64,000 nucleotides of DNA, taken from NCBI RefSeq assembly GCF_003344965.1, contig NZ_CP031194.1:6262001-6326000 (forward strand), in the 5' to 3' direction. Shown piece by piece: positions 12,136-59,584 of this stretch. The stretch is from Streptomyces paludis. GTDB lineage: Bacteria; Actinomycetota; Actinomycetes; Streptomycetales; Streptomycetaceae. The position numbers and the translations under genes are program-made. The notes under the pieces are model-generated. The model made no database searches. It saw only the letters and a program-made list of their open reading frames with translations, and had not been told where the DNA came from. The number at the start of each line of letters is the position of its first letter. Within the stretch, counting starts at the first letter, position 1.

Positions 12136-12138
12136 CGC

Positions 12139-13924: not shown

Positions 13925-14131
13925 ATGTCTGCACGTTTGCTCTCCATTCCCGCAGTTGCCGCCGCTTTGGACGTCAACCGGCGCACCGTTTACCGCTTCA
14001 TCGCCGCTGGCGAGCTCCCGGTCGTCGACCTGCGTACTGGAGTGGGCCGCTCCCGCGTCCGTGTTCCCGCTGCTGGGCTGGAGGAGTTCATCACCGGTAG
14101 GTCGGTCACAGTGTCGCGGCCACGCTGCTGA
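13925..14131 (+). CDS. Excisionase-like DNA-binding protein (MerR/Xis HTH)
   Basis: This 68-residue protein begins SARLLSIPAVAAALDVNRRT and continues VYRFIAAGELPVVDLR, a typical helix-turn-helix of AlpA/Xis-type excisionases, ending in a short basic tail. The ATG at 13925 follows AAGGA at normal spacing; a longer in-frame extension upstream has no ribosome site. It lies just before the integrase gene, as in actinobacterial integrative elements, where it would direct excision by the integrase. Confidence 0.85.
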   Translation: MSARLLSIPAVAAALDVNRRTVYRFIAAGELPVVDLRTGVGRSRVRVPAAGLEEFITGRSVTVSRPRC

Positions 14132-14189
14132 ACTCCCGTCGTCGGCTCAGTTTTCCTCGCGTTCGAATAAAAGGAGTAGTACCGCGTAT

Positions 14190-15324: not shown

Positions 15325-15796
15325 ACGTCTCGGGCTGAGCAACCCGAAAGCCTGCGTATCAGCTCCGGGCGGGCCGCCCGGTGGCCGCTTCCTCGCTATC
15401 GCTGGGCACTCCCTCATCGCCACGGTCCGTGTCGGTGCCGAGCCCAACAACGGCCAGGTTGTGGCGAGAGGAAGACGCGGCCCGATGCCGGGGCCCAGAG
15501 TGGTGCAGCGACGGGCAAGTCGACGAACTCGCCGAGGCGGCGCCATCGGGCCCTGCTTCGTCTGAACCAGCCACCCGTGCGGGTGATGTGTGCGCGTGGC
15601 TGCTCGCGACTGGGCGTACGTGAGCTATGGTTTGCCGTGCCTGGCCTCTGACGCGGCCAGTTCTGGATGCTGACCCGACCTTCAAGCATCGACAGAGATC
15701 CCACGTCCGCCGTTCAGATCCTGTTCGTCGCGTTCTGTATCCGGGTTGAAATGCGGCTTCGCCGCCAAGGTCGGGGGCGGCTCGGAGGACCGCATC
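15325..15796. other. Intergenic stretch, no gene supported
   Basis: About 470 bp between the integrase terminator and the next gene. Frames on both strands have compositions typical of antisense or random high-GC sequence. The right end must hold the promoter of the 611-residue protein; the ribosome site GGAGGA is at 15784-15789. An attachment site could lie here, but I found no matching repeat elsewhere in the window. Confidence 0.5.
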
Positions 15797-17632
15797 ATGT
15801 TCGACATCGATCAGATCAGCAACGCGGCCGCGGAGTTCACCGGCGAGTCCCTGGAGGATGCGCGTCGACGGCTGGGCAACCGCAGCCGGTACGACCACTT
15901 GATCCCGGACGCCGGCTGGTCGGGCCAGGCGCTGCTGGAGTCCACACTGCTGTCCGCACTGGGAGCGACGACCGGCGGCGAGCGTCCGTTCGGGATCCGT
16001 GAAGCCAAGATCACTGACCACGGCCTGGACCTGCGTGTCGAGCGGGCAGAAGACGTGCGGGCTCTGCTCGATCTTCTGCCGCTGCGTACGAAGCGGGGGC
16101 CGTGGCAGGGCGTGCGCGAACTGACCGCTCAGCCGGTGCGCACCCGACTGCGGTTCGGGTTCCGCGAGTGGGTGTACAACGCGGAAGGGTACGGTCGTAG
16201 CCCGGCACCCGTGGTGCGAGTCGCCGGGCCGCACGGAGTGGACCTGGAGGTTCTGCTCGCCGCCCACAGGAAGCAGACCGAGTCGTCGGGACACACCGTG
16301 CGCTGGGATCCGCAGGACACCGAACCCCGGCCCAAGCGACAGGAACCAGTCGCACGAAGCCTAGTGCGGCAACTCGGGGCGTCCTCCGCCATCGGGAGCC
16401 GCCTGCTCCGGCGTCCGCGCCTGTGGGACTGCCTAGCCGGCTATGCCGGGGTACATCTGAGCACCCACATCACTGACTACGGACTCGACTGGACCCTTGA
16501 ACGCCGGGTCGCCGGGCCGCACTTCGACCACGAACGCCTTCTGGCCGTACTTACCGACCCGGTGGTCGGCTACGGCCTCGCGGCGCTCGACCACCTATGC
16601 AGCACCGAGGAGTGCACGATCCGAGCGGTCCACCCGGGCCGCTGGAACAGCCGGGGTGTGCTCACCGTGCGCAGCCGCCAAGCGCCGATCACTGCGGAGC
16701 CGCCGCGCCCCACCCTGCCGCTCACGATGCTGGGTGAACGCCGCCGCATCAGCCGCCCACGTGCACAGCAGCAGTCCGGGCCGGTCGAGACCGACCGCTC
16801 CGGTGCGGTCCTGCAGTTGTTGGGCGACGGCGGCCGGGACCAGCTCGTGTGGGTAGCTGAACGGATCGCGGCGGCCTGGGCGGCCGAGGGCCTGGTTACC
16901 GCCGTGGTAGCAGCTCGGGCCCACGAAGGGTTCGGCTTGCGGGATCGGAGTCGGCCGGACTGGGCTACCGCGTCAAGCCCTGCGTCGGAGGCCGGGTGGC
17001 AGAGGCTGCGCGTTGTTTCCCCGCCCGGGCAACTGTGGCTGCGGGAGCCTGCACGGTCGGCTGGACCGGTCGCCTCCACCGTGGCGGAAGCCCGTCGCTT
17101 TGCCGACCGGGTCCTGCTGGTCTCCCGGGACTCGGACTATTTCCTGGAGGAAGCGGAGTACACCCAGCTCGCCGATGTCCGCCTCCTGGTACGAGAAGCC
17201 AGCCGGTACCAGCGGCATCTCGCTCTTCCTCCTTCCTCACTCGGGGCCGCCGGTGCCGTGGCGCTTACCCCGGCCGAGTCCGCCATCGCCTGGCGCCAGA
17301 AGAACTGGTCATACGAGACAGCGCATCTCCCCGTGACCGGTCTGCTACTCCTGCCCCGGGCAGATGAGGACGAGGCTCTTGACGAGTTCGATCACGCGGT
17401 GGAGGAGCAACTCGCCCGCTACGGCACCCCGGTCCTTGGACGGTTCCCGGATCATGGCTCGATCGTCCGCGGCAGGAGTCACAGCATGCACCCTCCGACT
17501 GTCCTGGATCCGGAATCGGCTCCGTCAGCGCACGCCCGCATGGTGAAAGCCGCTGCCGATCTCGCGCGACGCCTATGGCCCGAACTGCTCGCTGGCACCA
17601 GGACGACGCCGCCGGACAAGGGGCACCGGTGA
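15797..17632 (+). CDS. Unrecognised 611-residue protein
   Basis: I chose the ATG at 15797 because GGAGGA lies 7 bp upstream; an earlier in-frame ATG at 15746 lacks one. No family is recognised. The first 260 residues mix acidic and aromatic segments (RLRFGFREWVYNAEGYGRSP). The middle has a basic, proline-rich linker (RRISRPRAQQQ) at about 325. The last 250 residues (AVLQLLGDGGRDQLVWVAER, then FADRVLLVSRDSDYFLEEAE) alternate strands and helices in a way that recalls a degenerate MinD/ParA-like fold, but no proper Walker A motif is present. No signal peptide or membrane helix is seen. It follows the integrase and may be cargo of that element. Confidence 0.75.
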   Translation: MFDIDQISNAAAEFTGESLEDARRRLGNRSRYDHLIPDAGWSGQALLESTLLSALGATTGGERPFGIREAKITDHGLDLRVERAEDVRALLDLLPLRTKRGPWQGVRELTAQPVRTRLRFGFREWVYNAEGYGRSPAPVVRVAGPHGVDLEVLLAAHRKQTESSGHTVRWDPQDTEPRPKRQEPVARSLVRQLGASSAIGSRLLRRPRLWDCLAGYAGVHLSTHITDYGLDWTLERRVAGPHFDHERLLAVLTDPVVGYGLAALDHLCSTEECTIRAVHPGRWNSRGVLTVRSRQAPITAEPPRPTLPLTMLGERRRISRPRAQQQSGPVETDRSGAVLQLLGDGGRDQLVWVAERIAAAWAAEGLVTAVVAARAHEGFGLRDRSRPDWATASSPASEAGWQRLRVVSPPGQLWLREPARSAGPVASTVAEARRFADRVLLVSRDSDYFLEEAEYTQLADVRLLVREASRYQRHLALPPSSLGAAGAVALTPAESAIAWRQKNWSYETAHLPVTGLLLLPRADEDEALDEFDHAVEEQLARYGTPVLGRFPDHGSIVRGRSHSMHPPTVLDPESAPSAHARMVKAAADLARRLWPELLAGTRTTPPDKGHR

Positions 17633-17821
17633 CACCGACGCCGTAAGCCCCAGAAGCTGCAATCAGGTGAATCCTGTCCTGTAGGCGCCGCTTGGGACAC
17701 CTGCCGCACGTTGGCACGCACAGCTACATGGAGAGGAGTGTGCTGTGCCGACGTGGCAGGACGAGCTAGTCACCTGCTGCCTGACCTGCGGTGGGGCCAC
17801 TCCAGAGGACCAGCCTCAGTC

Positions 17822-18061
17822 CTACAGGGATTCCTCGGAACCGCCCTCGCTCGATCCAGCGATCTTGCCGCCGATGAATGCCACGCCCAACCCGAGGGCG
17901 GCTACACCGGCGGCTGCCACCAGCCTCATCCCCGCCCCCAGGAACTGCTTGCTCTCGCTGTCCTTCGCGCCTACCCGCTGTACGTTTCGGTCGAGGCGGT
18001 CATGGAGGGCCTCCCTTTGCGCCCAGCGGAGGTCGTCCCGACCGAAGTCGGCCCGCAGATC
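17822..18061 (-). pseudogene. Remnant encoding a C-terminal membrane helix
   Basis: The frame ending at a TAG (17822-17824) reads DFGRDDLRWAQREALHDRLD, then RLVAAAGVAALGLGVAFIGG and an acidic serine-rich tail. It looks like a charged helix followed by one transmembrane segment at a natural C-terminus. No ATG, GTG or TTG opens it with a ribosome site; an in-frame TGA lies immediately upstream at 18062-18064. The composition is protein-like, so I read it as the end of a gene that lost its beginning. The family is unknown. Confidence 0.5.
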
Positions 18062-18286
18062 TCAATCCCGGCGCACGAGGCATGGTCTCGGTCCGTACGA
18101 AGCCATGCGCGAGGCTCCTCGTAGTCGAGAATGATCTAGGCAGCGCCCGTTGGACGGGCAGCTTCCCCATGCCCGTCTACGGGACTGTGGCGCCTCGCAC
18201 CCCGTCGCACGGATGGTCTTGAGCAGGACGACGCTAGCGTTGTCAGGGGAGACGCCCCACAGCATGTTCGAGTCCAAGATGATCAA
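18062..18286 (-). pseudogene. PIN-domain-like N-terminal remnant
   Basis: The frame starts MIILDSNMLWGVSPDNASVV and LLKTIRATG, which resembles the first strand and helix of Streptomyces PIN-domain proteins with their leading Asp. After about 30 residues the sequence stops looking like a PIN domain (CEAPQSRRRAWGSCPSNGR) and ends at 18062. The other acidic active-site residues are missing. A deletion or insertion has probably joined this start to unrelated sequence, possibly the membrane-helix remnant that follows in the same frame. Confidence 0.55.
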
Positions 18287-19033: not shown

Positions 19034-22000
19034 GTGGCGGCGATCGACGACGCGAAACGGCTGATCCGGCACTTCTGCTGCGACGAACGAACTGCCCGCT
19101 ACGGCCCGTACGAGACCGTCCTCCCCGACGGCGACCCCGAAGTCCGTGAAGTGCTGCCCGGTCAGCTCTACGCCTGCCAGCTCCTGGAGGGCGATGCCCT
19201 GACCGCCCGGATCGTCGACGTCTCCGTCCACCTCGGACTGTCCGACCTCGGGGGTCTGATGTGGGATCAGGAGGTCAGGGCGCTGTCCCGGCTCTCCGGG
19301 CTCGCCCACCCCGCCCTCCCCGAACTGCTCGGCGGCGGCTATCAGGAACGGGAGGCAGTCGAGGCGGCGGGCGCGCGTGTCGACGGCGCCGCGTTCGTCG
19401 CGGCCGAGGGCTCCGACTACACCCTGGCTGTGTACGGTACCGCCGCCTACCGGCAGGACCGCGTAGAGGCGCTGCGTCAGTTCGAGCACCTCGCCGATGG
19501 ACTCGCCGTCCTCCATGACCTCGGGCTCGCCCATCGCAACCTGTCACCGCACAGCGTCGATGTCGTCGACGCTTACCGGGGCACCCCGCGGCTCAGACTC
19601 GCCCGGTTCGAGATGAGTGCCTTCATCTCCAGCCTGCTCGGCGGCGGCCCCACCCTCGACTCGCAGACCGCGCCCGGCACTCTGCGCCATCTTTTCCTCG
19701 GTGGCGGCCCGGCCATCCTGGCCTATATGCCACCCGAGAGATGGCAGTTTCTGCTGCCTCTCGACGAACGGACGGCGACGGCCCATGAGAACGCCACGGC
19801 CGACGTATACAGCCTCGCCGTGATGGCCTGGGAATGGTTCGTGGGGCCGCTGCCCACGGACCTCGTCCCCAGTCGGCTGCCCGAGACCCAGGAGGAGTAC
19901 CGCGAAACCCACGACCTGCTCGATCGTCTCGGCGACCATCTTCGGGCCGGTCTGCGCACCGCCGACATACCCGCAGAACTCGGCGGCCTGCTGCGGCGCA
20001 TGCTTGGCCCCGCCCACGAGGACCGTCCCACCTCGACCGAGGTCGTCAACGAGCTGAGCGACACCCACGACAGCAACGTCGTCGGACTCGGCGGTGTCAC
20101 CAGCGACCTGCCCTACCTGCTGGCGTTCATGCCCGACAAGAGCGACGAGACGCTCGGCCGCTGGGAGTGGCTGACCTTCGACGCGGATACCGACGACGGC
20201 ATCCGCGAAACCGCCGAACTCCTGCGCGCCGACCTGAAGAAGGCCACTGTCCTGTACTCGGAGGACGGGGCCGACCCGTTCGTCGGCGGCGGGTCCACCG
20301 AGGCCAAACGTCTCGCCACGGTTGTCCTCGTAGGCGAACGCGCCCTGTGGTTCGGACAGTTCTTGCGCCCACCTAACACCGGGTACGGACTCGGCGAACC
20401 CATGCCCGAGGTCCTCGTCATCAAGTACGTCGCGCAGCGCGACGTACACGCCGTGAACGACCGCCTCAAGAGCCTGGAGAACGCCTCCCGTTCCCGGTCC
20501 CTGCCCGAGGTCCAGCCCATCGACTACCGGATGCCGCTGATCCGGCTCAACGCGCTGCGCCGCGACCGCCCGTCCTGGCAGACTCTCGTCGACTCCATCA
20601 GGCCGGTCGGCTCCAAGTCCGAGGCACAGCTCGACTACCAGCGGGCCATCGACTGGCTCCTGGAGTATCAGGGCGTCGAACTCCAGGCCCGCCGCTACCC
20701 CTTCCGTACCGATCCCGCCGCCGAGCACGGACGCGCCGAGGAGATCCTCGTCCACTGGGACCGGGACCGGGACCGGGACCGCATCTACCGGCGTGCGCTG
20801 CTCGCCAAGTACGCCGGGTACACCGATCTCCGCCCGCCCTTCGGGGACTTCTTCGGGCGGCTGGAGAACGAGGAGAGCGGCAGCTCCGAGGTCGAGGTGT
20901 ACGACAGCGACAGTGATCGCAAGCCCGGCAGCGTCCAGGGTGTCCTGGCGAATGTGGTGCGACGGGAGGGCCAGGACCGGGTCGTCCTGCGTCGCAAACC
21001 GGGACAACTCAGGCTGCCCTCCCGGGGCTGGATGCGCCCCGCCGACGACGTCGGCACCGAGGCGGTCCTCAGCCGTCAGGTCGACGCCCGGTTCGAACTG
21101 TTCGCGCTCGCCCCCCTGACCTCCCGGCTGCGCAACCCCACCGCGATAAAGACCCTCCCTAACCGCTGGAAGGACGCCGGAGAGGGACTCCTCGAAGGCG
21201 GCCGGGAAGCGGTCCGGGACATCCTCACCCACCAGCCGTTCTTCGCCCTCCAGGGGCCGCCCGGTACCGGCAAGACCACCGTCACCTCCCGAGCGGTCGC
21301 CGCCTACCTCAAACAGGAACCAACCCACCGCATCCTGGTTTCCGCCCAGTCCAACTTCACCCTCGACAACCTCGCCGCGCGCATCCTCAAGGACATCGGG
21401 GCCCGCGACGACGACGGACCGACCGACCGACTCTCCGATGTACCCATCGCCCTACGCATGGTCTCCCGGCGCAACACCCCCGACGAGGCCGTCCGCCCAT
21501 GGCTCCGCGACGAACTCGTGGTGCGGCGCTCCCGGCAGATGCGCCGACGTGTCCAGGGCCTGCTCGACAGCGGTATCGACGGCACCGTACGGCCCGTTCT
21601 CCAAAGCTGGTACGACCTCCTCGACCAGCGCGACGGGCACTCCATCCTTCCCGAGCTGGGCGACCGGCTCCAGCGCGGCGCCAACATCGTCTTCGCGACC
21701 TGCGCCACGGCCACCCCCCGCAACATCGGCACCGCGGGCGGCGCCTCAGCGTTCGACTGGGTGATCGTGGAAGAAGCCGCCAAGGCATGGCCGACGGAAC
21801 TCGCCATCCCGCTGGTGCGCGGCATCCGCTGGACCCTGATCGGCGATCACTTCCAGCTGCCCGCCCATCGCCGCGACGAAGTGGTGCGTTTCCTCGACTC
21901 CTGCGTCGGCGACCCCAACACCGGCATTGCTGTCGCCGGCGACCAACGGCAGAAGTACGTCGAGGCGTTCGACCTGTTCCGCAATCTCTTCGTGCAACGG

Positions 22001-22732
22001 TCCGGTGGCCTCAGAGAGCGGCCCGTGGCGATGCTCTCCACCCAGTTCCGGATGCGTGAACCCATCGCCCAGGTCGTCAGCCGCGTCTTTTACCCCCGGG
22101 CCCTCGAACCCGGCGAGACCGCCCCCGAGGACGGGCTGAAGCCCGGCGGCCTCGCCACTCACCACGACGAGGAACCCTCCCCGCTGCGCGCTCCCCACTG
22201 GCTCAGGGAACGTTCCCTGGTATGGGTCGACACCGCCCGGCTCCCCGGCTGCGTCGAAGAACCCCACTGGCGCAACGAGGGCGAGGCGGCAGTCGTCCGG
22301 GCGGTCGTCCGCTCCCTGGACCCCGAACCGGTCCCCGGCCGACACGGGTACAGCACCGAACCCCTCGCCGTGCTCACCCCCTACCGGCTCCAGGCCGAGG
22401 AACTCCGCCGTGACGTCGGCCTCGCCAAGTACGTGCAGACCGTGCACGCCTTTCAGGGCCGCGAGGCCGACATCGTCGTCGTGTCCCTCGTCCGTAACCG
22501 CGTCCGCGGCCAGGGCAGCGCCGCCGAGAGCTACGGACACCTGGCCCGCCGCGACCTCATCAACGTCCTGTTCTCCCGGGCCAGACGCCTGCTCGTCGTC
22601 GTCGGCGACTACGGGCACTTCTCGCGCTTCCACGACGACAACGACCCGTTCTGGGCCGAGGTCTGCCAGGCTGTCGACCACTACGGGCACGTTTATGACG
22701 CCGCCACCGTCCTGCCCGAGGTGGCCAGTTGA
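19034..22732 (+). CDS. Pseudokinase-SF1 helicase fusion (Mokosh MkoA-like)
   Basis: This is a 1,232-residue cytoplasmic protein; I prefer the GTG at 19034 after a G-rich ribosome site. Residues 1-345 have the layout of a serine/threonine kinase (LHDLGLAHRNLSPHSVDVV near 159, YMPPERW, ADVYSLAVMAWEWFVG). The catalytic HRD is HRN (167-169), DFG is replaced by RFE (191-193), and no VAxK lysine is evident, so it is probably a pseudokinase. Residues from about 700 form a DNA2/UPF1-like superfamily 1 helicase (COG1112 type): Walker A GPPGTGKT at 741-748, Walker B VIVEEAAK near 910, STQFRMREPIA near 1001, HAFQGREADIVV near 1137 and NVLFSRARRLLVVVGD. The next gene overlaps its stop. In Mokosh type I anti-phage systems, as I recall, a kinase-helicase is paired with a PLD protein, exactly as here. 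Confidence 0.88.
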   Translation: MAAIDDAKRLIRHFCCDERTARYGPYETVLPDGDPEVREVLPGQLYACQLLEGDALTARIVDVSVHLGLSDLGGLMWDQEVRALSRLSGLAHPALPELLGGGYQEREAVEAAGARVDGAAFVAAEGSDYTLAVYGTAAYRQDRVEALRQFEHLADGLAVLHDLGLAHRNLSPHSVDVVDAYRGTPRLRLARFEMSAFISSLLGGGPTLDSQTAPGTLRHLFLGGGPAILAYMPPERWQFLLPLDERTATAHENATADVYSLAVMAWEWFVGPLPTDLVPSRLPETQEEYRETHDLLDRLGDHLRAGLRTADIPAELGGLLRRMLGPAHEDRPTSTEVVNELSDTHDSNVVGLGGVTSDLPYLLAFMPDKSDETLGRWEWLTFDADTDDGIRETAELLRADLKKATVLYSEDGADPFVGGGSTEAKRLATVVLVGERALWFGQFLRPPNTGYGLGEPMPEVLVIKYVAQRDVHAVNDRLKSLENASRSRSLPEVQPIDYRMPLIRLNALRRDRPSWQTLVDSIRPVGSKSEAQLDYQRAIDWLLEYQGVELQARRYPFRTDPAAEHGRAEEILVHWDRDRDRDRIYRRALLAKYAGYTDLRPPFGDFFGRLENEESGSSEVEVYDSDSDRKPGSVQGVLANVVRREGQDRVVLRRKPGQLRLPSRGWMRPADDVGTEAVLSRQVDARFELFALAPLTSRLRNPTAIKTLPNRWKDAGEGLLEGGREAVRDILTHQPFFALQGPPGTGKTTVTSRAVAAYLKQEPTHRILVSAQSNFTLDNLAARILKDIGARDDDGPTDRLSDVPIALRMVSRRNTPDEAVRPWLRDELVVRRSRQMRRRVQGLLDSGIDGTVRPVLQSWYDLLDQRDGHSILPELGDRLQRGANIVFATCATATPRNIGTAGGASAFDWVIVEEAAKAWPTELAIPLVRGIRWTLIGDHFQLPAHRRDEVVRFLDSCVGDPNTGIAVAGDQRQKYVEAFDLFRNLFVQRSGGLRERPVAMLSTQFRMREPIAQVVSRVFYPRALEPGETAPEDGLKPGGLATHHDEEPSPLRAPHWLRERSLVWVDTARLPGCVEEPHWRNEGEAAVVRAVVRSLDPEPVPGRHGYSTEPLAVLTPYRLQAEELRRDVGLAKYVQTVHAFQGREADIVVVSLVRNRVRGQGSAAESYGHLARRDLINVLFSRARRLLVVVGDYGHFSRFHDDNDPFWAEVCQAVDHYGHVYDAATVLPEVAS

Positions 22733-25700
22733 ACACCGTCACCACCGTCTACGTGCCCTGCGACGTGGTCCGCGTCCACGTCCGCATGGACTACGGCGAC
22801 ACCCTGTCGCCCATCGAGGAACTTGTCCTGCGCGCGATCCACGCCGGTCTCGACGACGTACCGCAGCTGGTCGAACACCTCCACCTCGGCAGCCGTCTCA
22901 TCCGTGACCTCGTCTATGACCTATGGCGGCAGGGCCACCTCACCGCGAACACCGTCGAGAGGACCGTCGCCGTGTCCCGGCTCGTCGCGGAGTGCCTGCG
23001 GGACGAGGATCTCAAGCGGCTGCGCGGCGCCGAGAGCGCACAGGAGACCCGCGACCTGATGATCGAGAAGCTGGCGATGCGGGTGCTGCCGGCCTCCGGC
23101 TGGTCCAAGCCGCCCAACTCCCGTTTCACCATGCCGCTCGAAGGGATCCGCGTCAGCCTCGCCGAGGCACCCGAGGCCCACATCCTCCAGGCGCTGCGCG
23201 AGTCACTGCGCAGAGACGAACAACGCCACCAGGCCCTGGCCGACGGCACCCGCACATCGGCCGTCGGACCCCGCGCCAAGCAGGTCCACTCGTACCGGAT
23301 ACCGCCACCCGGACTGCGTACTTCCACCGGACAGCGGTGGATCGACCTCATAGTGACCTCCCACTGGGACGACGACCACGAACGGCTCACCGTCACCGTC
23401 GTCGACGAGCGCATGCCCGCGGAACTACGCGAAGGCGCCTCGCAGCGCCTCACCCAGCTCGCCGTCGAGTACCCGCGTGCCTCCGTCTTCGTGGAATTGC
23501 GACGGCAGGCTCAGACCATCCTCGCCGAGCCCCCTTCGGCACCGAAGGCCCTTGACCGGCTGGCCCGCCGCGTTGCCCAGGCACCCGGCATCCCCGCCGG
23601 GCAGCGCCGCGCCTGGCACCATGAACTCGCCGACGATGCACGACAGTTGGACGGACTGCTGCGGGCCCGCGTCGAGCGGGAGATCGAGGTGCGGATCGTC
23701 GACGGTGCGGACCAGGCTCGCACCCTGAACGCACTCATCACGGATGCACAGCAACAGCTCGTCGTCGTCAGTCCCTGGATCCGCTATCGCGCTCTCGGCA
23801 GTCATCTCGACGCCCTCACCGCAGCCGTCCAGCGCGGCGTGACCCTCGTCCTCGTCTGGGGGCCGGGCTCCGACAGCGAGTACGAGGACACCTTCGACGA
23901 GCAGACCCGCAATGCCCTGGAGGACCTCGCCCGAGGCTCCGGCGGCCGGATCCTGCGCCGTGTCGTCCTGCCCCGCACCAGCAGTCGCACCCACGCCAAA
24001 CTCGTGGTCGCTGACCACCGCACCGCCTTCGTCACCAGTCGCAACCCCTTGTCCTCCGACGGCTCCCGGGGTGAACTCGGCGTCGAACTCACCGCCCGCG
24101 ACGGCACAGGCGAGACCGTCGTGCGCGAACTCCTCGACTGGGTACGCACCGCCGTCCCTTCCTACGAGCACAGCCAGACCGTCCGCACCCGCCCCGTCTC
24201 CGGTACCCCGTCGCCCACCACGGCCGAAGTGAACGAACCGCCGTCCCCGGCGATCGGGCCACCGGAGGAGGACTCCGCCTCCGATACGGCCGTACGGCTG
24301 TGGGCAGGCGACTGGCAGGACCACGTCTCCCGCTGCCGGGACTTCCTCGGCAAACGCGTCCTGCCCTCGGTACGCCCGGTCACCGACAGCGCCCACCGCA
24401 CTCTGCTGCGCACCGCCCTCACGCAGTCCCGGCATCAGCTCGTCATTGCCTCCGGAGGACTGTCCGACGAGGCCGTCGACCAGGCGTTCCTGACCGACCT
24501 GCGCGCCTGCCTGGAACGGGGCGTACGGGTGACGCTCGTCCACCCCGGACCGCCGGACGCCGGCCAGGCCAAGAACCGCTGGCAGATCGCCCGCGCCACA
24601 CTCGCCGCACTGCGCGAGGAATTCCCGGACCTGCTCACCCTGAACGGTGACGGCGCCAACCACGCCAAGGCCATCGTCTGGGACGACGAAGCCGTCGTCG
24701 GAAGCTTCAACTACCTCTCGTTCGAGGGCCGTTACGGGCGCCGACGTTTGTCGTCCGAGCTGAGCGTGCGACTGACCGGCCAGGAGGTGGCCGATGCCGT
24801 CGCCGAGGCCCTGGGCGCCACACTCGTGGCCCGGCCGGAACCGGAGGCCGAACCGCTGCTCGTCCTGCCCGGACCGGGCTTCCGCAGTGCCAGGCTGCTG
24901 CTGGAGCAGCGCCGCGACGACGGCTCGCCCGACGCCGAGGGCGTCCGGCGGGTCCTCGCCGACGCCGCCGACCCGTGGGAGGTCCTGGACGGCCTCGGCG
25001 AGGACGGCCCCACCGACCTGCTGCGGATCGCCGCCGCCCGCTGCCTCACCACACCCGGCACCGCCACCGGCCCGGGCACCGACACCGCCCGGCGGTCCCA
25101 CTGGACCGAATGGCTGGTACGGGACCGCTGGCAGGACCACGATTTCGTCCAGGCCGCCATCCTGCGCCACACCCTGCCCGACCCGGACCTGCGGCCACGC
25201 CCGGGCCTGGCCCTCCTCGCCGCCGCCCGGGGCACCCCACGGCTCACGGACGCGATCGAGAACCTCGTACTGTCCGACATGACTCCCGCGGAGGTCCAGC
25301 CGACCCTGCTCGCCGCAGTCGGCGCGGTGCTGCTCCAGGGCAGTCAGAGTGCCGCCGACGCTTTGAGCGCGTTCCTCGCCGACACCGTGGAGGGCGTCTG
25401 GCTCGAACTGGCGGAGCGCACCGGCCGGTACTGGACCGACAGCTACGTACCCGTACCGATGGACCTGGTCCGCAGCGACCTGCGCAGCACCGGCAAGGAC
25501 CGGGCGCGCGCACAGGCGTGGGAGGTGTTGGAGCGACTCCTCGACCACGCCCGCGCCTCCGCTTTCGACAACACCGTCAGCAACCGCACCCACCGCGCCC
25601 TTTTCGACCGGGAAGCGGGAGAGTTCGCCGTGCTGGCCGACATCGTCGCTGAGCGTGCCCCGGGCCGGCTCACAGCCTGGCGGTCCGCACCGGCCGTGCA

Positions 25701-26022
25701 GGACCTGACCCGGCTCATCGAACGGGTCGGCGCCGAGGTCTCCCCGGGACACCCGCCGATGCACGGCGATCATCTCAAGCGATATCTGAAGCGCCTGGAA
25801 CCGGTCCTCGACCAGGCGGCGACCGTCGCGCCCCTGTCGGACTCCGCCGGACACGAGGAAGGGGAAGGGCAGTTGGCGGCTGCGCGAGAACTCGGCGACT
25901 GGCTGGCCGCCCGATGGCGCGCCTTGTCGGAGGCGACGGCCGCGCTGACCGGACCCGAGGGACGGCTGGCGGACGCCTTCCTCGCGGACCTGGAAGAACT
26001 GGCCCGCTGGAGGGCGACATGA
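22729..26022 (+). CDS. Phospholipase D-family nuclease-like protein (Mokosh MkoB-like)
   Basis: This 1,097-residue protein has two HKD motifs: HAKLVVADHRTAFVTSRN from about residue 422 and HAKAIVWDDEAVVGSFN from about 645. Two such motifs in one chain form a complete PLD active site; PLD proteins next to helicases are usually nucleases. A winged-helix-like N-terminus (PIEELVLRAIHAGLDD) precedes, and a long helical region follows residue 720. The TTG start shares TTGA with the helicase stop; the next in-frame ATG is at 22786. Coupling implies equal amounts of helicase and nuclease. No membrane segment is seen. The family is firm; the defence role is inferred from the pairing. Confidence 0.88.
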   Translation: MNTVTTVYVPCDVVRVHVRMDYGDTLSPIEELVLRAIHAGLDDVPQLVEHLHLGSRLIRDLVYDLWRQGHLTANTVERTVAVSRLVAECLRDEDLKRLRGAESAQETRDLMIEKLAMRVLPASGWSKPPNSRFTMPLEGIRVSLAEAPEAHILQALRESLRRDEQRHQALADGTRTSAVGPRAKQVHSYRIPPPGLRTSTGQRWIDLIVTSHWDDDHERLTVTVVDERMPAELREGASQRLTQLAVEYPRASVFVELRRQAQTILAEPPSAPKALDRLARRVAQAPGIPAGQRRAWHHELADDARQLDGLLRARVEREIEVRIVDGADQARTLNALITDAQQQLVVVSPWIRYRALGSHLDALTAAVQRGVTLVLVWGPGSDSEYEDTFDEQTRNALEDLARGSGGRILRRVVLPRTSSRTHAKLVVADHRTAFVTSRNPLSSDGSRGELGVELTARDGTGETVVRELLDWVRTAVPSYEHSQTVRTRPVSGTPSPTTAEVNEPPSPAIGPPEEDSASDTAVRLWAGDWQDHVSRCRDFLGKRVLPSVRPVTDSAHRTLLRTALTQSRHQLVIASGGLSDEAVDQAFLTDLRACLERGVRVTLVHPGPPDAGQAKNRWQIARATLAALREEFPDLLTLNGDGANHAKAIVWDDEAVVGSFNYLSFEGRYGRRRLSSELSVRLTGQEVADAVAEALGATLVARPEPEAEPLLVLPGPGFRSARLLLEQRRDDGSPDAEGVRRVLADAADPWEVLDGLGEDGPTDLLRIAAARCLTTPGTATGPGTDTARRSHWTEWLVRDRWQDHDFVQAAILRHTLPDPDLRPRPGLALLAAARGTPRLTDAIENLVLSDMTPAEVQPTLLAAVGAVLLQGSQSAADALSAFLADTVEGVWLELAERTGRYWTDSYVPVPMDLVRSDLRSTGKDRARAQAWEVLERLLDHARASAFDNTVSNRTHRALFDREAGEFAVLADIVAERAPGRLTAWRSAPAVQDLTRLIERVGAEVSPGHPPMHGDHLKRYLKRLEPVLDQAATVAPLSDSAGHEEGEGQLAAARELGDWLAARWRALSEATAALTGPEGRLADAFLADLEELARWRAT

Positions 26023-28496
26023 CCGAGCCACTGCTGTCAGTCCTCGCGGAGTGGCCTGGACGCTGGCGCCACCCCGGTCTCGCCGATGCTCTCTCCGGCG
26101 GACGGAGCGGCACCCTCGACCAGGCCGCCGCGCACGTGCTGGCGGGTCTCGCCGACCCGCTGACCACGACCGAGAGTGTCGAAAGGCTCCTGAGGCAGGG
26201 GCACTTCGAGCTGGTGGACGAGTTCCTCGCCGAGTGCGCGGCCGACGGGCCGACGCTTCAGGACACCGACCCGGTGGACGCCGCCTGGATCAGGGACGTG
26301 CTGGCCGCGGCCCGGCTCGACGCCCTCGCCAAGGCCGAACGCGACCTCGCTCTCCTCGGCGAGCGGGCGATCCGCGCCGGACTCGACCCGGCCTCCCCGC
26401 CCGACGGCTTCTTTGACGCGGTGAACCTGCGCACCTCCAGGGCGAGCGAACTGCTCGACGGGGAACGGGAGACGAGGATCCTCCCGGCGGAGCGGAGTGT
26501 GCGTGAGCGGCTCGAACGGCGGCTGGCCGAACTTCCCGAAGACCGGGTCGACCGCAAGGCCGTGGAGGACTGCCTGAGCGCGGGCGAGTTCCCCGCGGCC
26601 CGGCTTCTGCTGGAGTCCACGCACTCCGAGCAGGAGAACGGCGGCCCGGCAGCGGTGCCGCGCCCGCCCCTGTGGGATCCCGCGCTCGGCAGTCGGCTGG
26701 ACGAAATCCTTCCGCATTACCTGGAGGGAGCGTTTGCGGACCACCGGTTGCGACGCTTCACCGACGTCGGTGAAACGGGTCGCGAAGCCGTCCTGGCGCT
26801 GAACGACCTCGTCGCCCGACCAGAGCCGGCGACCGCCGGGGCGTTCGCGCGCGCCCTCGGCCACCTGCTCGGTGAGGATGTACGGTTCCCCGTCGTCGAA
26901 GAGGCCGGAGGGTTCCGTACGGCGTTCGTCGGGTTGAACGACGCCCGGCTGCCCCGCACCTCCCTCCACCGGGACACCGGCGCCGTCCTGTGGATCGCCG
27001 ACGAACACACCCCGCCCCCGGACGACCTGCTCCGGCCCCTCGTCTGGTTCCGCACCACCGGTACGCAGCGCGAGCCCACCGGACGCCCCGACGGCGTCGC
27101 CGTCCTCACCGCGACGGACCTGCTGCGCCTGTTCGCCCAGCCCGCGCCTGGCACGCCCGCGGGCCCGGCCACCCGCCGCGTGAACTTGCTGCGGGTGCTC
27201 GTCCCCCAGCTCGGCATCGAGGGGATCTCCGATCCCGACACGGGCGTCGCGCTCGGCCGGGGCGTGCCCCCGCGCGAGGGACTCGCCTGGCTGTTGGACC
27301 TGCTCGCCGTGTCGGCGGAGGCCGTAGTCATGGACACCCTGCACTACGAGACCGGAGCCCACCCGGTGATCCTGCCCCGGTTCCTGGGCGACCTGCTCTC
27401 CAGGCTGCCATCCTCGCGCACCCTGACCCTCGGTGCGCTGGCCGCCGTCCGCAACCCTCGCACTCGCGACGACCTGCGCGCCGTGCTGACTGGGCCGCTG
27501 CGTCTGAACGAGGGTGCCGTCCTCGGTATGGCGTACGCGCTGCACCAGCACGTACCGTTCCGGGCCGCCGACCTGGCGGCGGACATGACGTTCTTCGACG
27601 TGCCCGTGGAGTTCGACACGGAGACGGTGCGCCTGCTCGATGTGGAGGCCGCCCTCTCGCAACTCACCTCACACGGACTGCTCACCGCCCAAGGTGACAC
27701 CTGGGTGACGCTCCGCTCGGGTCTGGGACGGCTGCTCGCCGAGGAGGCCGAGAAACTGGCGGGAAGTTCCCTGCGGGCGTTGCTGGAGCGTGTGGAACAG
27801 GCCGACGCGCACGCCCGGGTCGCGCTCACCGACCAGGCGATAACAGCGATCGGACACCGCAACGACAACCGGGTGGCCAGCATCCTGGACGATCTCTCCC
27901 GGCTGGAGGGTTCTCTGCCGCCCGAGGCCCGTGGCGTCCTGGACCGGCTCCGGGACCGGGCGAGCCAGTTCCGGGGTGAGCACTACCAGGACGCGGTGGC
28001 CGGTTTCCTGCGGCCGGCAGAACGCGCGGACCTGGTGCAGGCGGTTCAGGAGGTGACGACGGCCGTCCAGCACGAGTACGGCGTGCAGATCGACGTGTGG
28101 ACGTCGGCGCCGGAACCTCTGCACGTCCACGCGGTGAAGGTGTATGTCAAGATCGCGGTGGAGAACTTGCTGATGAATGCGGCGCAGGCGCTGGGCACGG
28201 TGGACGACGACGAGGAGCGGCGGATCGTCGTGCGGCTGAGGACTGCCGACCGGGGACCCGAGGGCGGGGAGCCCGCCCCGTGGTGCAACGTCGAAGTGGA
28301 GGACAGCGGGCCCGGCCTGACCGAGGAGGAGCGTGCGGCGCTGCGCGTGGGCCGCACCTTTTCCCGCAACGGCAGTGGGGGATCGGGGCTGGCACTGGCG
28401 CGCAAGCTGGTGCAGGAATGCCGGGGCACCATCGAGATCCTGGAACGTTCACCCCTGGGTGGCGCCCATCTCAAGGTGTGGCTGCCGCGCGTCTGA
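26019..28496 (+). CDS. Cytosolic GHKL histidine-kinase-like protein with large N-terminal region
   Basis: This 825-residue protein starts at an ATG overlapping the PLD stop (ATGA). The last 220 residues are a histidine kinase core: possible phospho-acceptor His in AITAIGHRNDNRVASILDDL (about 613), N box ENLLMNAAQAL (715), G1 VEDSGPGLTEE (about 761) and G2 GSGGSGLALARKL (785). The first 600 residues match no domain I know. They include VLWIADEHTPPPDDLLRPLV near 330 and a helical, winged-helix-like stretch at about 470-590, and might be a sensor. There is no membrane helix. As the third gene of a helicase-nuclease operon it may sense infection or control expression. Its likely partner is the receiver-domain regulator encoded convergently 12 bp away. 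Confidence 0.82.
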   Translation: MTEPLLSVLAEWPGRWRHPGLADALSGGRSGTLDQAAAHVLAGLADPLTTTESVERLLRQGHFELVDEFLAECAADGPTLQDTDPVDAAWIRDVLAAARLDALAKAERDLALLGERAIRAGLDPASPPDGFFDAVNLRTSRASELLDGERETRILPAERSVRERLERRLAELPEDRVDRKAVEDCLSAGEFPAARLLLESTHSEQENGGPAAVPRPPLWDPALGSRLDEILPHYLEGAFADHRLRRFTDVGETGREAVLALNDLVARPEPATAGAFARALGHLLGEDVRFPVVEEAGGFRTAFVGLNDARLPRTSLHRDTGAVLWIADEHTPPPDDLLRPLVWFRTTGTQREPTGRPDGVAVLTATDLLRLFAQPAPGTPAGPATRRVNLLRVLVPQLGIEGISDPDTGVALGRGVPPREGLAWLLDLLAVSAEAVVMDTLHYETGAHPVILPRFLGDLLSRLPSSRTLTLGALAAVRNPRTRDDLRAVLTGPLRLNEGAVLGMAYALHQHVPFRAADLAADMTFFDVPVEFDTETVRLLDVEAALSQLTSHGLLTAQGDTWVTLRSGLGRLLAEEAEKLAGSSLRALLERVEQADAHARVALTDQAITAIGHRNDNRVASILDDLSRLEGSLPPEARGVLDRLRDRASQFRGEHYQDAVAGFLRPAERADLVQAVQEVTTAVQHEYGVQIDVWTSAPEPLHVHAVKVYVKIAVENLLMNAAQALGTVDDDEERRIVVRLRTADRGPEGGEPAPWCNVEVEDSGPGLTEEERAALRVGRTFSRNGSGGSGLALARKLVQECRGTIEILERSPLGGAHLKVWLPRV

Positions 28497-28508: not shown

Positions 28509-29717
28509 TCACGCGGGCCAGGTGTCACGGAAGTCCCGGACCGCGCGGCGGGCCTCGGGCAGGGTGCCGATCTCCATCTGGCGTGCGGCCACGGCTGCCT
28601 CCACCTCGCACTGCCTGAGCCGCGTGTGGTTGTGCTCGGGGGAGGGGTAGCTCAGCCGCTTGCGGGCGTGAAACAGCGCGGTCTCCAGCGTGGAGCCCAG
28701 CCGGGCCCGTACGTGTACGTCCTCGTCGGAGGTGAGCTGCGTGGCGGCCTCACGGAGGGCCCGGGCGTTGAAGGTCCCGTAACCCTTGTAGACGATCTGC
28801 AGCAACCGGTACCGCTTCTGCTGGATGGTGCTCTCCTGGCGGAGGTTCCCCGCCGGCGGGGCCATCGTCATCACGGAGGCCGGGATCTCGGTGTTGAGGC
28901 GCAGCCAGTCGGCGATCTGGTAGCCGTCGTGATCGCGGAAGGAGTCCGTGAGATGCAGGTCGATGAGTGCGCCGTGCACGGACAAGATGTCGTCCCTACG
29001 GTCCCTGAGCTGCCGCTCCCAGTCCGCGAGGTCCGTGACCCGTACGCACTCGTAGGCATCGAGGATGTCGACGATCTGGTCCATGTTCTGGTCCTCGACG
29101 ACGAGGAGACGCTTGCGATCCAGCCGGGCCAGATCGGCCTGCAGCAGAGCGCTCGCCCGGTCGTCGGGAAACAGGTCCAGGAACTCGCCCAGTTCGGGCA
29201 GGGATTCCCAGTCCGCTGCCCGCACATGTTTCAGCAGGGTACTCCGTCCCTTGATGTGCCGGTTCCACAACAGGCGGTCCACCTGGGGGTGATGCAGCAG
29301 CGGATCGCCTGTCCAGTGGGCCATGAGCGCCGCCAGCCGGCTCACGTCAGGCGTGGCCGCCAGATCCCGCAGATCGCGCAGGAAGTCCTCCGCGTCGACC
29401 CGCACCCGCTCGAAGTCCAGCACGTACGGGTCGGTCGCGGAACGGCCCCGCTCCGGGATCGGCAGCCCGAGCCTGCGCAACTCGGTGACGTGCTGTTCAA
29501 GGGCGTTGGCCGATCTGATGCCCCGTCGGCGGCCGTCCGTACTGAGCACCGACTGCAGCAGCCGGTCGGGGCCCAGCCCCCGCTGGCCCGCTGTCGCGAG
29601 ACAGACGAGAACAGCGCATCTCAGGCCCCTGGGCGGCGGATCGAGCAGCACCCCATCTCGCCACACCGTCAACGGACCCAGTACCTGGATTCTCCAGATC
29701 TCCCCCGAAAGCCCCAT
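28509..29717 (-). CDS. Regulator with N-terminal winged helix and C-terminal receiver domain
   Basis: I start at the ATG at 29717; upstream in-frame codons lack support. The 402-residue protein begins with an AfsR/OmpR-type winged helix (IQVLGPLTVWRDGVLLDPPP). A helical BTAD-like segment follows. From about residue 203 there is a response-regulator receiver fold: LLVVEDQN (acidic pocket) and ALIDLHLTD near 252 with the likely phosphorylated Asp. The lysine usual at the end of strand 5 is not evident (SVMTMAPP). About 100 helical residues follow. The order (DNA-binding first, receiver later) is the reverse of normal response regulators. It converges on the GHKL gene, suggesting a two-component module controlling the island. 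Confidence 0.78.
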   Translation of the reverse strand: MGLSGEIWRIQVLGPLTVWRDGVLLDPPPRGLRCAVLVCLATAGQRGLGPDRLLQSVLSTDGRRRGIRSANALEQHVTELRRLGLPIPERGRSATDPYVLDFERVRVDAEDFLRDLRDLAATPDVSRLAALMAHWTGDPLLHHPQVDRLLWNRHIKGRSTLLKHVRAADWESLPELGEFLDLFPDDRASALLQADLARLDRKRLLVVEDQNMDQIVDILDAYECVRVTDLADWERQLRDRRDDILSVHGALIDLHLTDSFRDHDGYQIADWLRLNTEIPASVMTMAPPAGNLRQESTIQQKRYRLLQIVYKGYGTFNARALREAATQLTSDEDVHVRARLGSTLETALFHARKRLSYPSPEHNHTRLRQCEVEAAVAARQMEIGTLPEARRAVRDFRDTWPA

Positions 29718-29900: not shown

Positions 29901-31169
29901 ATGCACGAGGTACGACTCACCCGTGACGAGCAGCCCATCGAAGGCAACGTGATGGTCGTCGCCCCCTTCGGCAAGAAGGCTCTGCCGGACGGCACCACCT
30001 TCGACTTCGACTGGCTGTACACCGACGTCATCAGCCCCACCGTGATCGAGGCCGGGATGACCCCGGTCCGAGGCGACTCGGTGTACGGCCCGGCATCCGT
30101 GCTGAACGTCGTCTGGCGGGCCATCCAGCAGGCGGAACTGGTCGTCGTCGACTTCTCCTGCCGCGCCCCGAACGTGGCTATGGAGTACATGGCGGCCAAG
30201 CTCATCGGCAAGCGCATGATCTACCTCGCCCAGTCCCCGGACGACATCCCGAGCGACGTCCGCGGACTGCGCTACATCCCGTACAGCGCCCTGTACGCCG
30301 ACATGTCCCACATGTGCGGTGAACTGCGGTTGCAGTTGGAGGCGGTACGGCAGGAGCCCGTGCAGGAGATGGCCCTCATCCCCATGGCGACCAAGGGCAC
30401 CGTCCCGGCCCGTGCGCGGGTGGTCTCCGTCAGCCGTGAGTTCGCGGTGGTCCGGGCCGACGACGGCACCCACGGCGTCCTCGGCCAGGAGGACGTCGAC
30501 TGGTCGCGGATCGTCGCCGACATGACCCGCCTGTACGCGGTCGGTGACGTCCTCGACGGCGCCTTCGAGCTCCAGCCCACCGGCGGTGCCAAGTACACGC
30601 TCATCGCGGGTCGTCCCAACCCGTGGCAGGCCCTCGCCGCGAGCCACCCCGCCGGGCACCGCTTCACGGCCGACGTGCACAGCGTGCGCGACGCCGGTGT
30701 CTTCGTCCGCGTCACAGGCGACATCAATGGCCTGGTGCCCCGCAGCACCCTCCCCGAGGGAGTCGAGGTCCGCCCGAGGAGCGAGGCGGACGTCAGTGTC
30801 GTCGACGTCGACGTGCGGCGGCGGCGCGTCACCCTGAAGCTGCACGAGCGGCTCCCGGCGCCCACCCCGATCCGGCAGAACGCCTACCCGTCCGTGCTCC
30901 GGGCCGGGGACCGTCTTGAGGGCCGGGTGCACAAGGCGCTGCCCGAGGACGAGGGCGGCTACATCCTGCTCAAGGTCGAGGGCCGCAGCCGGCCCGTGCT
31001 ACTGCACTGCTCGGCGATGAGCGAGGAACTCCGCCACGACCTCAACGCGGGCGAGGTCGAGCGGGACGAGATCATCGACGTGGAGGTCGTCTCGGTCGAC
31101 TCGTCCCGGGACAAGGTCCTGGTGCGGGACCTGCCGGAGGAGGTAGAGGACGTCGGGACCGCGGCCTGA
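29901..31169 (+). CDS. Nucleoside-deoxyribosyltransferase/TIR-like domain fused to S1 RNA-binding domains
   Basis: The start ATG at 29901 has GAGG 8 bp upstream; ATG 29856 would add 15 residues. The protein has about 422 residues. Residues 12-150 (NVMVVAPFGKK, VISPTVIEAGMTPVRGD, AELVVVDFSCRAPNVAMEYM) look like a Rossmann-like nucleoside deoxyribosyltransferase or TIR-like fold, with a Glu in NVAMEYM in the place of the catalytic residue. Two or three S1/OB-type segments follow (ARARVVSVSREFAVVRADDG, ADVHSVRDAGVFVRVTGDI, and one near the end). The combination suggests an enzyme acting on a nucleotide with RNA or ribosome binding; a defence effector is plausible but unproven. A two-tier terminator follows. 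Confidence 0.75.
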   Translation: MHEVRLTRDEQPIEGNVMVVAPFGKKALPDGTTFDFDWLYTDVISPTVIEAGMTPVRGDSVYGPASVLNVVWRAIQQAELVVVDFSCRAPNVAMEYMAAKLIGKRMIYLAQSPDDIPSDVRGLRYIPYSALYADMSHMCGELRLQLEAVRQEPVQEMALIPMATKGTVPARARVVSVSREFAVVRADDGTHGVLGQEDVDWSRIVADMTRLYAVGDVLDGAFELQPTGGAKYTLIAGRPNPWQALAASHPAGHRFTADVHSVRDAGVFVRVTGDINGLVPRSTLPEGVEVRPRSEADVSVVDVDVRRRRVTLKLHERLPAPTPIRQNAYPSVLRAGDRLEGRVHKALPEDEGGYILLKVEGRSRPVLLHCSAMSEELRHDLNAGEVERDEIIDVEVVSVDSSRDKVLVRDLPEEVEDVGTAA

Positions 31170-31361: not shown

Positions 31362-31920
31362 TCAGTCGATGTCCGGATCATCGGCCTCTTCGAGGAGACG
31401 GGTCGCGAGGTCGTCGGCCCACTCCACGGCCCAGGAGCGGAGAGCGGTAATGGCGGCGTCATCGAGCCCATAGGCGGCGAAGGCTTCGTCGTCGGTCCAC
31501 TCGGCGCCCGTGAGGTTCGCCTGCAGATCCTCGCGCTCGAAGCGGGCCGCGGGCGTGGCGGCGGCCGAACTCTTCGAGCTCGGCATTGGTCCAGCGGCGG
31601 GAGGCTGCGAACACGTCGATCAGGTCGCGGGGCGCTCCGCGGTCGGCGAGGGCGCGGACCTTGGTCCCGATCACGTCCTCCTCCGAGAGGACGGGGCCGT
31701 ACGGGCTCTGGGTGACCGGCCGCCAGAAGATCTCCTTGAGGATGTCGACTTCGCAGTCCTGCCCGGTGGCCGGGTCGGTCACGGTGAAGCGGGCGGACAG
31801 TGGGGCGGTCTCCAGCGCGTGCACCTTCCAGCCGCGGGCTTCCAGGCTGGCGCGGAGCGTGGCGGCGATGTCGGCCATGGGCGCCGGGTTCTCGGTAGCG
31901 ACGTCGAGGTCCTGGCTAGG
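31362..31920 (-). pseudogene. AbiEii-type nucleotidyltransferase toxin, C-terminal part
   Basis: Reading leftwards from 31920, the frame gives SQDLDVATENPAPMADIAAT, EVDILKEIFWRPVTQ and DRGAPRDLIDVFAASRRWTN. This is the body of an AbiEii/AbiGii-type nucleotidyltransferase, with DLDVAT supplying part of the metal-binding motif. Near 31557 an extra base shifts the frame: the natural continuation (RFEREDLQANLTGAEWTDD and on to the stop at 31362) is in another frame. The N-terminal part lies at 34375-34500 on the far side of an IS481-family insertion. Removing the insertion and one copy of the 6-bp duplication rejoins the codons perfectly (VNRP-SQDLDVATENP). The gene is therefore broken twice. Confidence 0.82.
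31915..31920. repeat. Target-site duplication GCTAGG, left copy
   Basis: GCTAGG directly adjoins the left end of the IS481-family element. The identical right copy is at 34375-34380. Confidence 0.85.
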
Positions 31921-32899
31921 TGTATTGACCCGCAGGGTTGTTGACGCGACTGATTGGCGGTTGACCACCGAGTGCAGTGTGGCACCGGTGGTAGTTGTAG
32001 GTGTGGAGGAAGTCCGCAAGGGCCTCGGTGCGCTCGGTGTTGCTGGAGTAAGGACGCACGTACGCCCACTCGTCAAGCAGGGTGCGATTCAGGCGCTCGA
32101 CCTTGCCGTTCGTCTGCGGGCGATAGGGACGCGTGCGTTTATGGATGATGTTGGCGGCGCTGAGGGTCTGGGCGAACAGGCGGGATCTGTAGCAGGAGCC
32201 GTTGTCCGTGAGGACGCGCTCGACGGTGATGCCGTGCTCGGCGAAGAAGGTGTTGGCGCGCTCCCAGAAAGCGGCGGCGGTCTCCTTGCGTTCGTTGGCC
32301 AGAACCTCGCTGTACGCAAGTCGGGAGTGATCGTCGATGGCTGTATGCACGAAGCTGTAGCCGATCACTGGGCTGCCGCCCCTGCGCGCGTCGGTGGTGG
32401 CCTGCCGGTTGCCGTTTGCCTGCTGCCGGGGCATGATCCGATGCCCTCCGCCGTCGGGTATGTTGCCGAGTTTCTTGATGTCGACGTGGACCAGCTCGCC
32501 AGGGCGTGAGCGTTCGTAACGGCGGATGATCTGCCCGGTGGGCCGGTCCATCCAGCGCAGGCGGTTCATTTGGTGCCGGGTCAGGACGCGGTGGACGGTG
32601 GAGGCAGGCATGCCCAGGATGGGACCGATCCTGGCGGGGCCGAGTTTCCGTTCGCGCCGCAGCTGGCAGATTTGGGCTTCGACGTCGGCAGGGGTTCGGT
32701 GCGGCGTCGTCCGGGGTCGGCTGGAGCGGTCGTAGAGTCCGGCGTCGCCTTCGTCGCGCCAGCGCCGTACCCACTTGTGGGCGGTGGCGCGGGAGATGCC
32801 CATCTCTTCGGCGACGTGGGCGACGGGTCGGCCGGCCCGAACCCGGTCGATCAGGAGCCGTCTGCCGTGGACGGTCAGCCGGGCATGGGGATGAGACAC
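31916..32899 (-). CDS. IS481-family DDE transposase
   Basis: I chose the GTG at 32899 (protein starting VSHPHARLTVHGRRLLI), giving 327 residues; longer frames upstream are arginine/proline-rich and unlikely. An N-terminal HTH (VAHVAEEMGISRATAHKWVR) precedes the integrase-core fold. The DDE residues are in GELVHVDIKKLG, VERVLTDNGSCYRS and TRPYRPQTNGKVERLNRTL. The C-terminus RVNNPAGQYT is encoded by the terminal inverted repeat, and the stop codon TAG comes from the duplicated target GCTAGG, not from the element. All catalytic residues are present, so it may be active. Confidence 0.92.
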   Translation of the reverse strand: MSHPHARLTVHGRRLLIDRVRAGRPVAHVAEEMGISRATAHKWVRRWRDEGDAGLYDRSSRPRTTPHRTPADVEAQICQLRRERKLGPARIGPILGMPASTVHRVLTRHQMNRLRWMDRPTGQIIRRYERSRPGELVHVDIKKLGNIPDGGGHRIMPRQQANGNRQATTDARRGGSPVIGYSFVHTAIDDHSRLAYSEVLANERKETAAAFWERANTFFAEHGITVERVLTDNGSCYRSRLFAQTLSAANIIHKRTRPYRPQTNGKVERLNRTLLDEWAYVRPYSSNTERTEALADFLHTYNYHRCHTALGGQPPISRVNNPAGQYT

Positions 32900-33142
32900 G
32901 AGGACCTTCGCGGTGATGCGGGGCGGGTGCGGACACCGGCGGCCGCCACCTGATCCAGGGGCGGCCGCCGTGCATGGGTTCAGCACGCTGTCTGGAGGAA
33001 GGCGCGCACGTCGGCAACGAGTTCGGCGGGTTCCTGGAGGGGGACACCGAATGTTGAACGTGTGCCAAGTTGGAGTGACGCACCAGAGTCTGATCCGGGT
33101 GCGGCGTGGAGTGCGGCCGCATCCGGGCAGCGTCATCGCGGG

Positions 33143-59406: not shown

Positions 59407-59584
59407 GGAAATCTCCTTCGCGAGATGACTCCTGAACATCCCGGCGACAGGACGCGAGCGCGAAGGGGTGACGGACCGGACGGACCGGTGCCGCGCCCGC
59501 CGGGGCGCGCTCGTCCGCCTGGTATGCACGCCGACCCGCCCACGAGGTCACCGGGAAATCCGTACGCGATCGGTCGCGTACGGG

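Follow-up and report, generated by a model that had tools for sequence, protein, structure and literature searches.

We examined a 64,000-nucleotide stretch of Streptomyces paludis DNA (contig NZ_CP031194.1, positions 6,262,001 to 6,326,000 of the forward strand; hereafter the window), which carries an operon related to the anti-phage system Mokosh type I and, facing it, a response regulator gene. The genome that carries the locus is a single contig of 8.45 Mb; the nearest named relative at the locus is S. geranii, which is 99% identical there (its third gene likewise), and the locus L022 of our survey is nearly identical to that of the window. Three genes lie open on the plus strand at 19034-22732, 22729-26022 and 26019-28496 and form a tight operon, with 4-base overlaps at both junctions (TTGA between MkoA and MkoB, ATGA between MkoB and the third gene) and a third-position guanine-plus-cytosine fraction of 0.86-0.87 throughout, as fits real coding. 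The original prediction, made from the DNA letters, had described three overlapping genes at this place, and the open frames, overlaps and third-position composition agree with it; what it overlooked is a receiver-domain gene on the opposite strand, which runs towards the third gene and ends 12 bases past its stop. The features of the locus, in window coordinates, are these:

19034..22732, plus strand: MkoA-like gene, GTG start, 1232 residues; N-terminal pseudokinase fused to a superfamily 1 (UPF1/IGHMBP2-type) helicase
19478..20050, plus strand: pseudokinase domain, residues 149-339; degenerate Pkinase match, E 8.8e-4, under the Pfam cut-off
21254..21277, plus strand: Walker A helicase motif GPPGTGKT, residues 741-748
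22729..26022, plus strand: MkoB-like PLD protein, TTG start, 1097 residues
23992..24015, plus strand: first HxKxxxxD motif of the MkoB-like protein, residues 422-429
24661..24684, plus strand: second HxKxxxxD motif of the MkoB-like protein, residues 645-652
26019..28496, plus strand: third gene, soluble histidine-kinase-like protein of 825 residues; N-terminal part of about 570 residues, then DHp and CA domains
27747..28007, plus strand: DHp helical hairpin (helices 577-630 and 635-663), from the predicted model and structure matches
27855..27857, plus strand: H-box His613 (GHRNDN) of the third protein, predicted phospho-acceptor
28011..28493, plus strand: CA (GHKL ATPase) domain, residues 665-825, with N-box, DSGPG and GSGGSGL boxes
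28509..29717, minus strand: convergent response regulator, 402 residues; AfsR/SARP-like winged helix and BTAD-like helices, receiver at 200-331, helical tail
28959..28961, minus strand: Asp253 of the response regulator, predicted receiver phospho-acceptor
29901..31169, plus strand: S1-domain protein (S1 matches) with an uncharacterised N-terminal domain

The first two genes match those of Mokosh type I, as had been proposed. The PADLOC profile for MkoA (PDLC03920) matches the first protein with E 1.8e-247 over residues 34-1223 (profile positions 20-1096 of 1112), and that for MkoB (PDLC03922) matches the second with E 5.5e-136 over residues 4-701 (profile positions 5-600 of 610). It is thus the first 700 or so residues of the MkoB-like protein that match the profile, which was matched by all 13 long MkoBs scanned, and the last 400 or so are an extension common to long MkoBs. 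The helicase part of the MkoA-like protein matches Pfam AAA_11/AAA_12, and an IGHMBP2-type match falls under the NCBIfam cut-off; a Pfam scan gave no NERD match in this protein. Its kinase domain has HRN (residues 167-169) for HRD and RFE for DFG, exactly the substitutions first noticed, and the reading of it as a pseudokinase fits, since the domain is degenerate in 13 of 13 aligned MkoAs (HRN, HRR or HGS; RFE or HFE). The core helicase motifs of the same 13 proteins are invariant while the kinase has decayed; G741, P742, P743, G744, G746 and K747 are found in every one. We rejected a PglW/BREX identity for MkoA (E 1.3e-5, with a match limited to the kinase region) and membership of MkoB in DISARM, for which there were weak DrmC matches alone. 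The two HKD motifs reported for the second protein are present, each as H-x-K-x4-D.

The third protein had been called a GHKL ATPase, and a Pfam HATPase_c match at residues 711-824 (E 1.9e-11) bears this out. It matches no PADLOC family; Pfam sees C-terminal histidine-kinase-type ATPase families alone, and the N-terminal 570 or so residues have no Pfam match. In the AlphaFold2 model (predicted local distance difference test score 82.6), to which the solved-structure matches cover residues 601-825 among the matches listed, a predicted DHp hairpin is followed by a CA domain, as in two-component histidine kinases. His613 lies, as inferred from the ends of VIA alignments, within one residue of the position of HK853 H260, and the N, G1 and G2 boxes of the ATP-binding domain are present. 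Divergent relatives that were aligned are 23-44% identical to the protein in the window. A membrane-bound classical sensor kinase was considered and rejected (best 19-residue hydropathy 1.48), as was the database label 'HAMP domain-containing', which Pfam does not support. Carriage of the gene on plasmids (no plasmid match) or in viruses (found in 0 of 40 patterned viral stretches) was likewise rejected.

The facing regulator has the features of a receiver in its predicted fold, with an acidic pair, a phospho-accepting Asp, a Thr/Ser and a Lys, and D253, D209 and K311 are invariant in a nine-row alignment. At one locus, L092, its place is taken by a 911-residue protein (15545-18280, minus strand) in which NERD and two kinase-like regions precede a C-terminal receiver. 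Judged by its sequence, this protein keeps the receiver and has exchanged the winged-helix output for a NERD-protein-kinase, which is as a true kinase-receiver partnership predicts. Of the 14 loci with a receiver gene, 10 have an S1-domain gene on its far side (the stretch fetched for L092 ends too early to tell), and this S1 gene may be the regulator's target or a further component.

We surveyed the linkage of these genes starting from MkoB, with the third gene not used as a query. MkoB was matched in 14 of 199 Streptomyces genomes, seven of them with a long MkoB and seven with short ones only (open frames of 463-479 residues); one genome, G033, has a short MkoB besides its long one. Ten further long-MkoB genomes came from samples of the order (391 genomes), the class (197) and the Actinomadura family (200), with G700 entered as a sample centre that had been chosen after a scan with the third gene had found it. 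The MkoB profile hit 287 of the 391 genomes in the order sample, for the most part weakly; we followed the six with E of 1.6e-123 or lower and 12 of the 14 whose E lay between 6.3e-70 and 1.0e-42, setting weaker matches aside. The third gene lies directly downstream of MkoB in 17 of the 17 long-MkoB genomes followed from the MkoB searches; two of these long MkoBs are incomplete as sequenced, G157 being cut by contig ends and G761 having a frame change. At 12 loci of Streptomyces with a short MkoB there was no match to the profile of the third gene or to that of the regulator. Presence at all of the former and none of the latter indicates a recurrent three-gene actinobacterial Mokosh subtype.

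Searches from the third gene gave the same arrangement. It was matched in 6 of 65 Actinomadura genomes, with MkoA and MkoB upstream in all six. A scan of genome contigs with the third gene found nine loci, of which five match beyond the kinase module; MkoB is upstream in all five and MkoA in four, the fifth contig starting inside MkoB. The remaining four (L027-L030) match the C-terminal kinase part only, have no MkoB and were left out of the counts. In total MkoB is next upstream of the third gene in 22 of 22 loci examined, and where the junction was read to the base it is a 4-base overlap at eight loci, an 8-base overlap at two (L026 and L066) and a 38-base gap at L033. The locus profiles were built partly from the loci scanned; L084, L091-L094 and L101-L103 stood outside profile building. 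Far from being rarely adjacent elsewhere, then, the three genes recur together. In a tree of 24 MkoAs the 18 rows from three-gene loci separate from the six two-gene rows with support of 100/99; the drawing is midpoint-rooted, and the program warned that the two-gene branches are long. We conclude that the locus almost certainly represents a recurrent actinobacterial subtype of Mokosh type I with three genes, as the original prediction had ventured. Named relatives of the third gene are from Streptomyces or Actinomadura (the protein searches scored the 7993 candidates sharing most words), and the long MkoB is patchy, occurring in 7 of the 199 Streptomyces genomes and 5 of the 200 in the Actinomadura-family sample.

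What the subtype conserves is the helicase, the long MkoB and the third protein. Among 21 subtype MkoBs (L024, whose sequence starts too late for the region, is left out) both PLD motifs are kept in eight, the first only in two and neither in 11 (L031-L035, L065-L067, L084, L094 and L102), with the operon still kept; the sequences thus place the PLD motifs outside the conserved core. The two PLD motifs named in the original prediction are present in the window and lost from these 11 relatives. We also observed a frame break in the MkoB of L093, near 12018-12327, which reflects sequencing error or decay.

The H-box His is present in 14 of the 22 three-gene loci, and a facing receiver gene is present in all 14 (the window, L022-L025, L031, L066, L091-L094 and L101-L103). 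Eight loci have neither. In seven of them (L032-L035, L065, L067 and L084) the CA domain is kept and the H-box is gone; in L026 both DHp and CA are gone and the N-terminal part alone is kept. At these eight loci tblastn and profile searches, confined to the locus, found no receiver gene within at least 3.4 kilobases beyond the third gene, and Pfam (E 0.001) found no receiver in eight open reading frames near the third gene in seven of them (one each in L026, L032, L033, L034, L065 and L067 and two in L035; L084 was left out). The rule that the His comes with a receiver gene was fixed before L101-L103 were retrieved and fits all three; the His of L101 had already been seen, as protein P0009, before the prediction, and its neighbour had not. 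In the MkoA tree the seven loci form one clade (100/100), and L026 falls among the His-bearing loci (100/100).

Taken together, we think it likely that the three-gene subtype has a dedicated two-component phosphorelay, and that this is probably a working relay from the third protein to the facing regulator. The reading draws on which genes occur at the loci and how they are linked, on predicted folds and conserved residues, and on the joint distribution of the genes, all of it taken from sequence. A signalling arm had been part of the original prediction; the predicted DHp-CA fold, the conserved His and the co-occurring receiver gene speak for it, the clade of seven loci with an ATPase and neither His nor regulator does not, and the proposed arm is not confined to the three genes, since it includes one outside them.

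Several observations weigh against such a relay. Because the seven loci are one clade and L026 is separate, the correlation between His and regulator amounts to about two evolutionary events and not 22, and support is weak (81/58) for the grouping that unites all His-bearing loci and L026. Pfam does not recognise the receiver in the window, with E 0.012 reached by a single relative (L093), and gave no HisKA match in the third-protein members scanned. The residue that follows the H-box His is usually acidic; here it is R, Q, M, Y, H, K, N or W, and kinase activity could therefore be altered or absent. Finally, the third gene of L025 is frame-broken near 12219-12488, through sequencing error or decay.

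We propose that the soluble third protein would dock on MkoA/MkoB through its N-terminal domain, and that engagement of phage nucleic acid (or another infection cue) by the helicase would change the DHp-CA module. H613 would then be autophosphorylated and would hand its phosphate on to D253 in the regulator. The AfsR/SARP-like winged helix of the regulator would in turn alter transcription, the most likely targets being the Mokosh operon, the neighbouring S1 gene or both; the regulator might activate its targets upon infection or repress them while there is none. In L092 the receiver is joined to another output, the NERD-protein-kinase, and in the sister clade the third protein might act without a phosphorelay, as an ATP-driven switch only. 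The fuller picture is of an immune system with a built-in phosphorelay, in which infection is sensed by the helicase complex and converted to a phosphate signal by a soluble histidine kinase from the same operon. A modular receiver protein would then relay the signal either to transcription, by way of a SARP-like winged helix, or to a kinase-nuclease, as in the NERD-kinase-receiver protein, and the third protein would serve as effector or switch in the sister clade that lacks PLD motifs. We hold this picture tentatively, with a little less than even confidence.

A different possibility is that the third protein is no histidine kinase and serves as a GHKL ATPase structural switch or effector in the Mokosh complex, with the regulator controlling expression only. 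The clade that keeps CA without H-box His and facing receiver gene would suit such a role, as would the retention in L026 of the N-terminal part alone, and the loss of both PLD motifs from 11 of 21 MkoBs, among them those of all seven loci of the regulator-less clade, leaves room for another effector. Nevertheless, DHp region, His and canonical receiver gene stay associated in the window's group although the third proteins measured share only 26-44% identity with that of the window, and in L026 all three are jointly lost; we regard this alternative as unlikely. It is more doubtful still, and in our view improbable, that the operon serves nucleic-acid repair or RNA turnover under a two-component pair and is not anti-phage. 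UPF1-type helicases and PLD proteins do have other roles, and no phage assay of the subtype was found in the literature searched; the best profile matches are nevertheless to MkoA and MkoB, and the patchy distribution and the nearby phage-type integrase and transposase fit mobile defence cargo. It is very improbable that a normal two-gene Mokosh system just happens to have an ordinary two-component pair as its neighbour: regulator genes are common in Streptomyces, some relatives are named simply 'sensor histidine kinase' in databases, and the neighbourhood counts leave out seven relatives seen as proteins only (P0004, P0006-P0008, P0010, P0013 and P0014), but the unbroken MkoB linkage, with mostly short overlaps where the junction was read, the restriction of MkoB-less scan matches to the C-terminal kinase part, and the persistence of the third gene after loss of the regulator and even of the kinase module all speak against it.

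Defence systems of prokaryotes are usually portrayed as machines that couple sensor directly to effector. If the preferred phosphorelay is real, bacteria wire phage detection into two-component signalling by way of a helicase-based immune system. The exchanged receiver output of L092 offers a direct handle on the effect of the signal, and the role of MkoB after loss of its PLD motifs becomes testable. We also note that the defence catalogue used, PADLOC, misses components of a named system.

Upstream of the operon lies a phage-type integrase (13956-15287, plus strand) and downstream of it an IS481-like transposase (31916-33136, minus strand), which suggests a mobile region around the operon. 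Between the integrase and MkoA is an open reading frame of 628 residues (15746-17632, plus strand) with no Pfam or PADLOC match and no tblastn match among 26 loci; beside the transposase is a partial AbiEii-like nucleotidyltransferase match (31459-32076, minus strand). A cobalamin riboswitch lies farther away, at 59573-59797 on the minus strand (94.5 bits).

We found no description of a three-gene Mokosh subtype in the literature searched, in which 'Mokosh type III/subtype/-like' gave none, and the portions available of three papers on defence systems mention no histidine kinase for Mokosh (PMC11672841, PMC10952713, PMC11291487). A survey of BREX describes, in its accessible text, fusions in which a Schlafen RNase carries a minimal histidine kinase and a wHTH (PMC12839542). 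These resemble the present case in having a histidine-kinase module near a defence locus; they differ in being a single fused RNase protein linked to BREX, for which that text mentions no receiver partner, so that a kinase module near defence genes has precedent and the arrangement here does not. DISARM DrmC shares PLD domain matches, but its match to the MkoB-like protein is far weaker (9.9e-14 versus 5.5e-136 for MkoB), and PADLOC found no other DISARM protein among the operon genes, the regulator, the S1 gene and the upstream open reading frame.

Two-component systems of the HK853-RR468 type share the DHp-CA architecture and the receiver fold, both predicted here, whereas the third protein has a large N-terminal part without a Pfam match, is tied to a defence operon and has an H-box without an acidic neighbour, and the regulator has its receiver after an AfsR/SARP-like winged helix. 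AfsR/EmbR (SARP) regulators have the same N-terminal winged helix and BTAD-like helices; AfsR carries a STAND part and EmbR an FHA part, and the regulator in the window has a receiver where these sit. Mokosh type II (MkoC, a single fused protein) likewise combines helicase and PLD modules, and there are partial MkoC matches, but the genes in the window are separate and match MkoC in pieces only.

The closest known system is Mokosh type I, in which, according to the accessible text of the sources, helicase and PLD nuclease lie in separate genes with a serine/threonine kinase domain (PMC11672841), and NERD and PLD-like domains are listed (PMC10952713); of Mokosh in general it is said that it degrades foreign viral transcripts (PMC11291487). 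The locus shares with it a kinase-like plus helicase MkoA and a separate PLD MkoB, with near-full PADLOC profile matches. It differs in that its kinase is degenerate, its MkoA has no NERD match though NERD is listed for type I in the text available (PMC10952713), its MkoB exceeds by about 400 residues the part that the 610-position profile covers, and both PLD motifs are gone from just over half of the subtype MkoBs; it also has the third gene and, in the window's group, the receiver gene that faces it.
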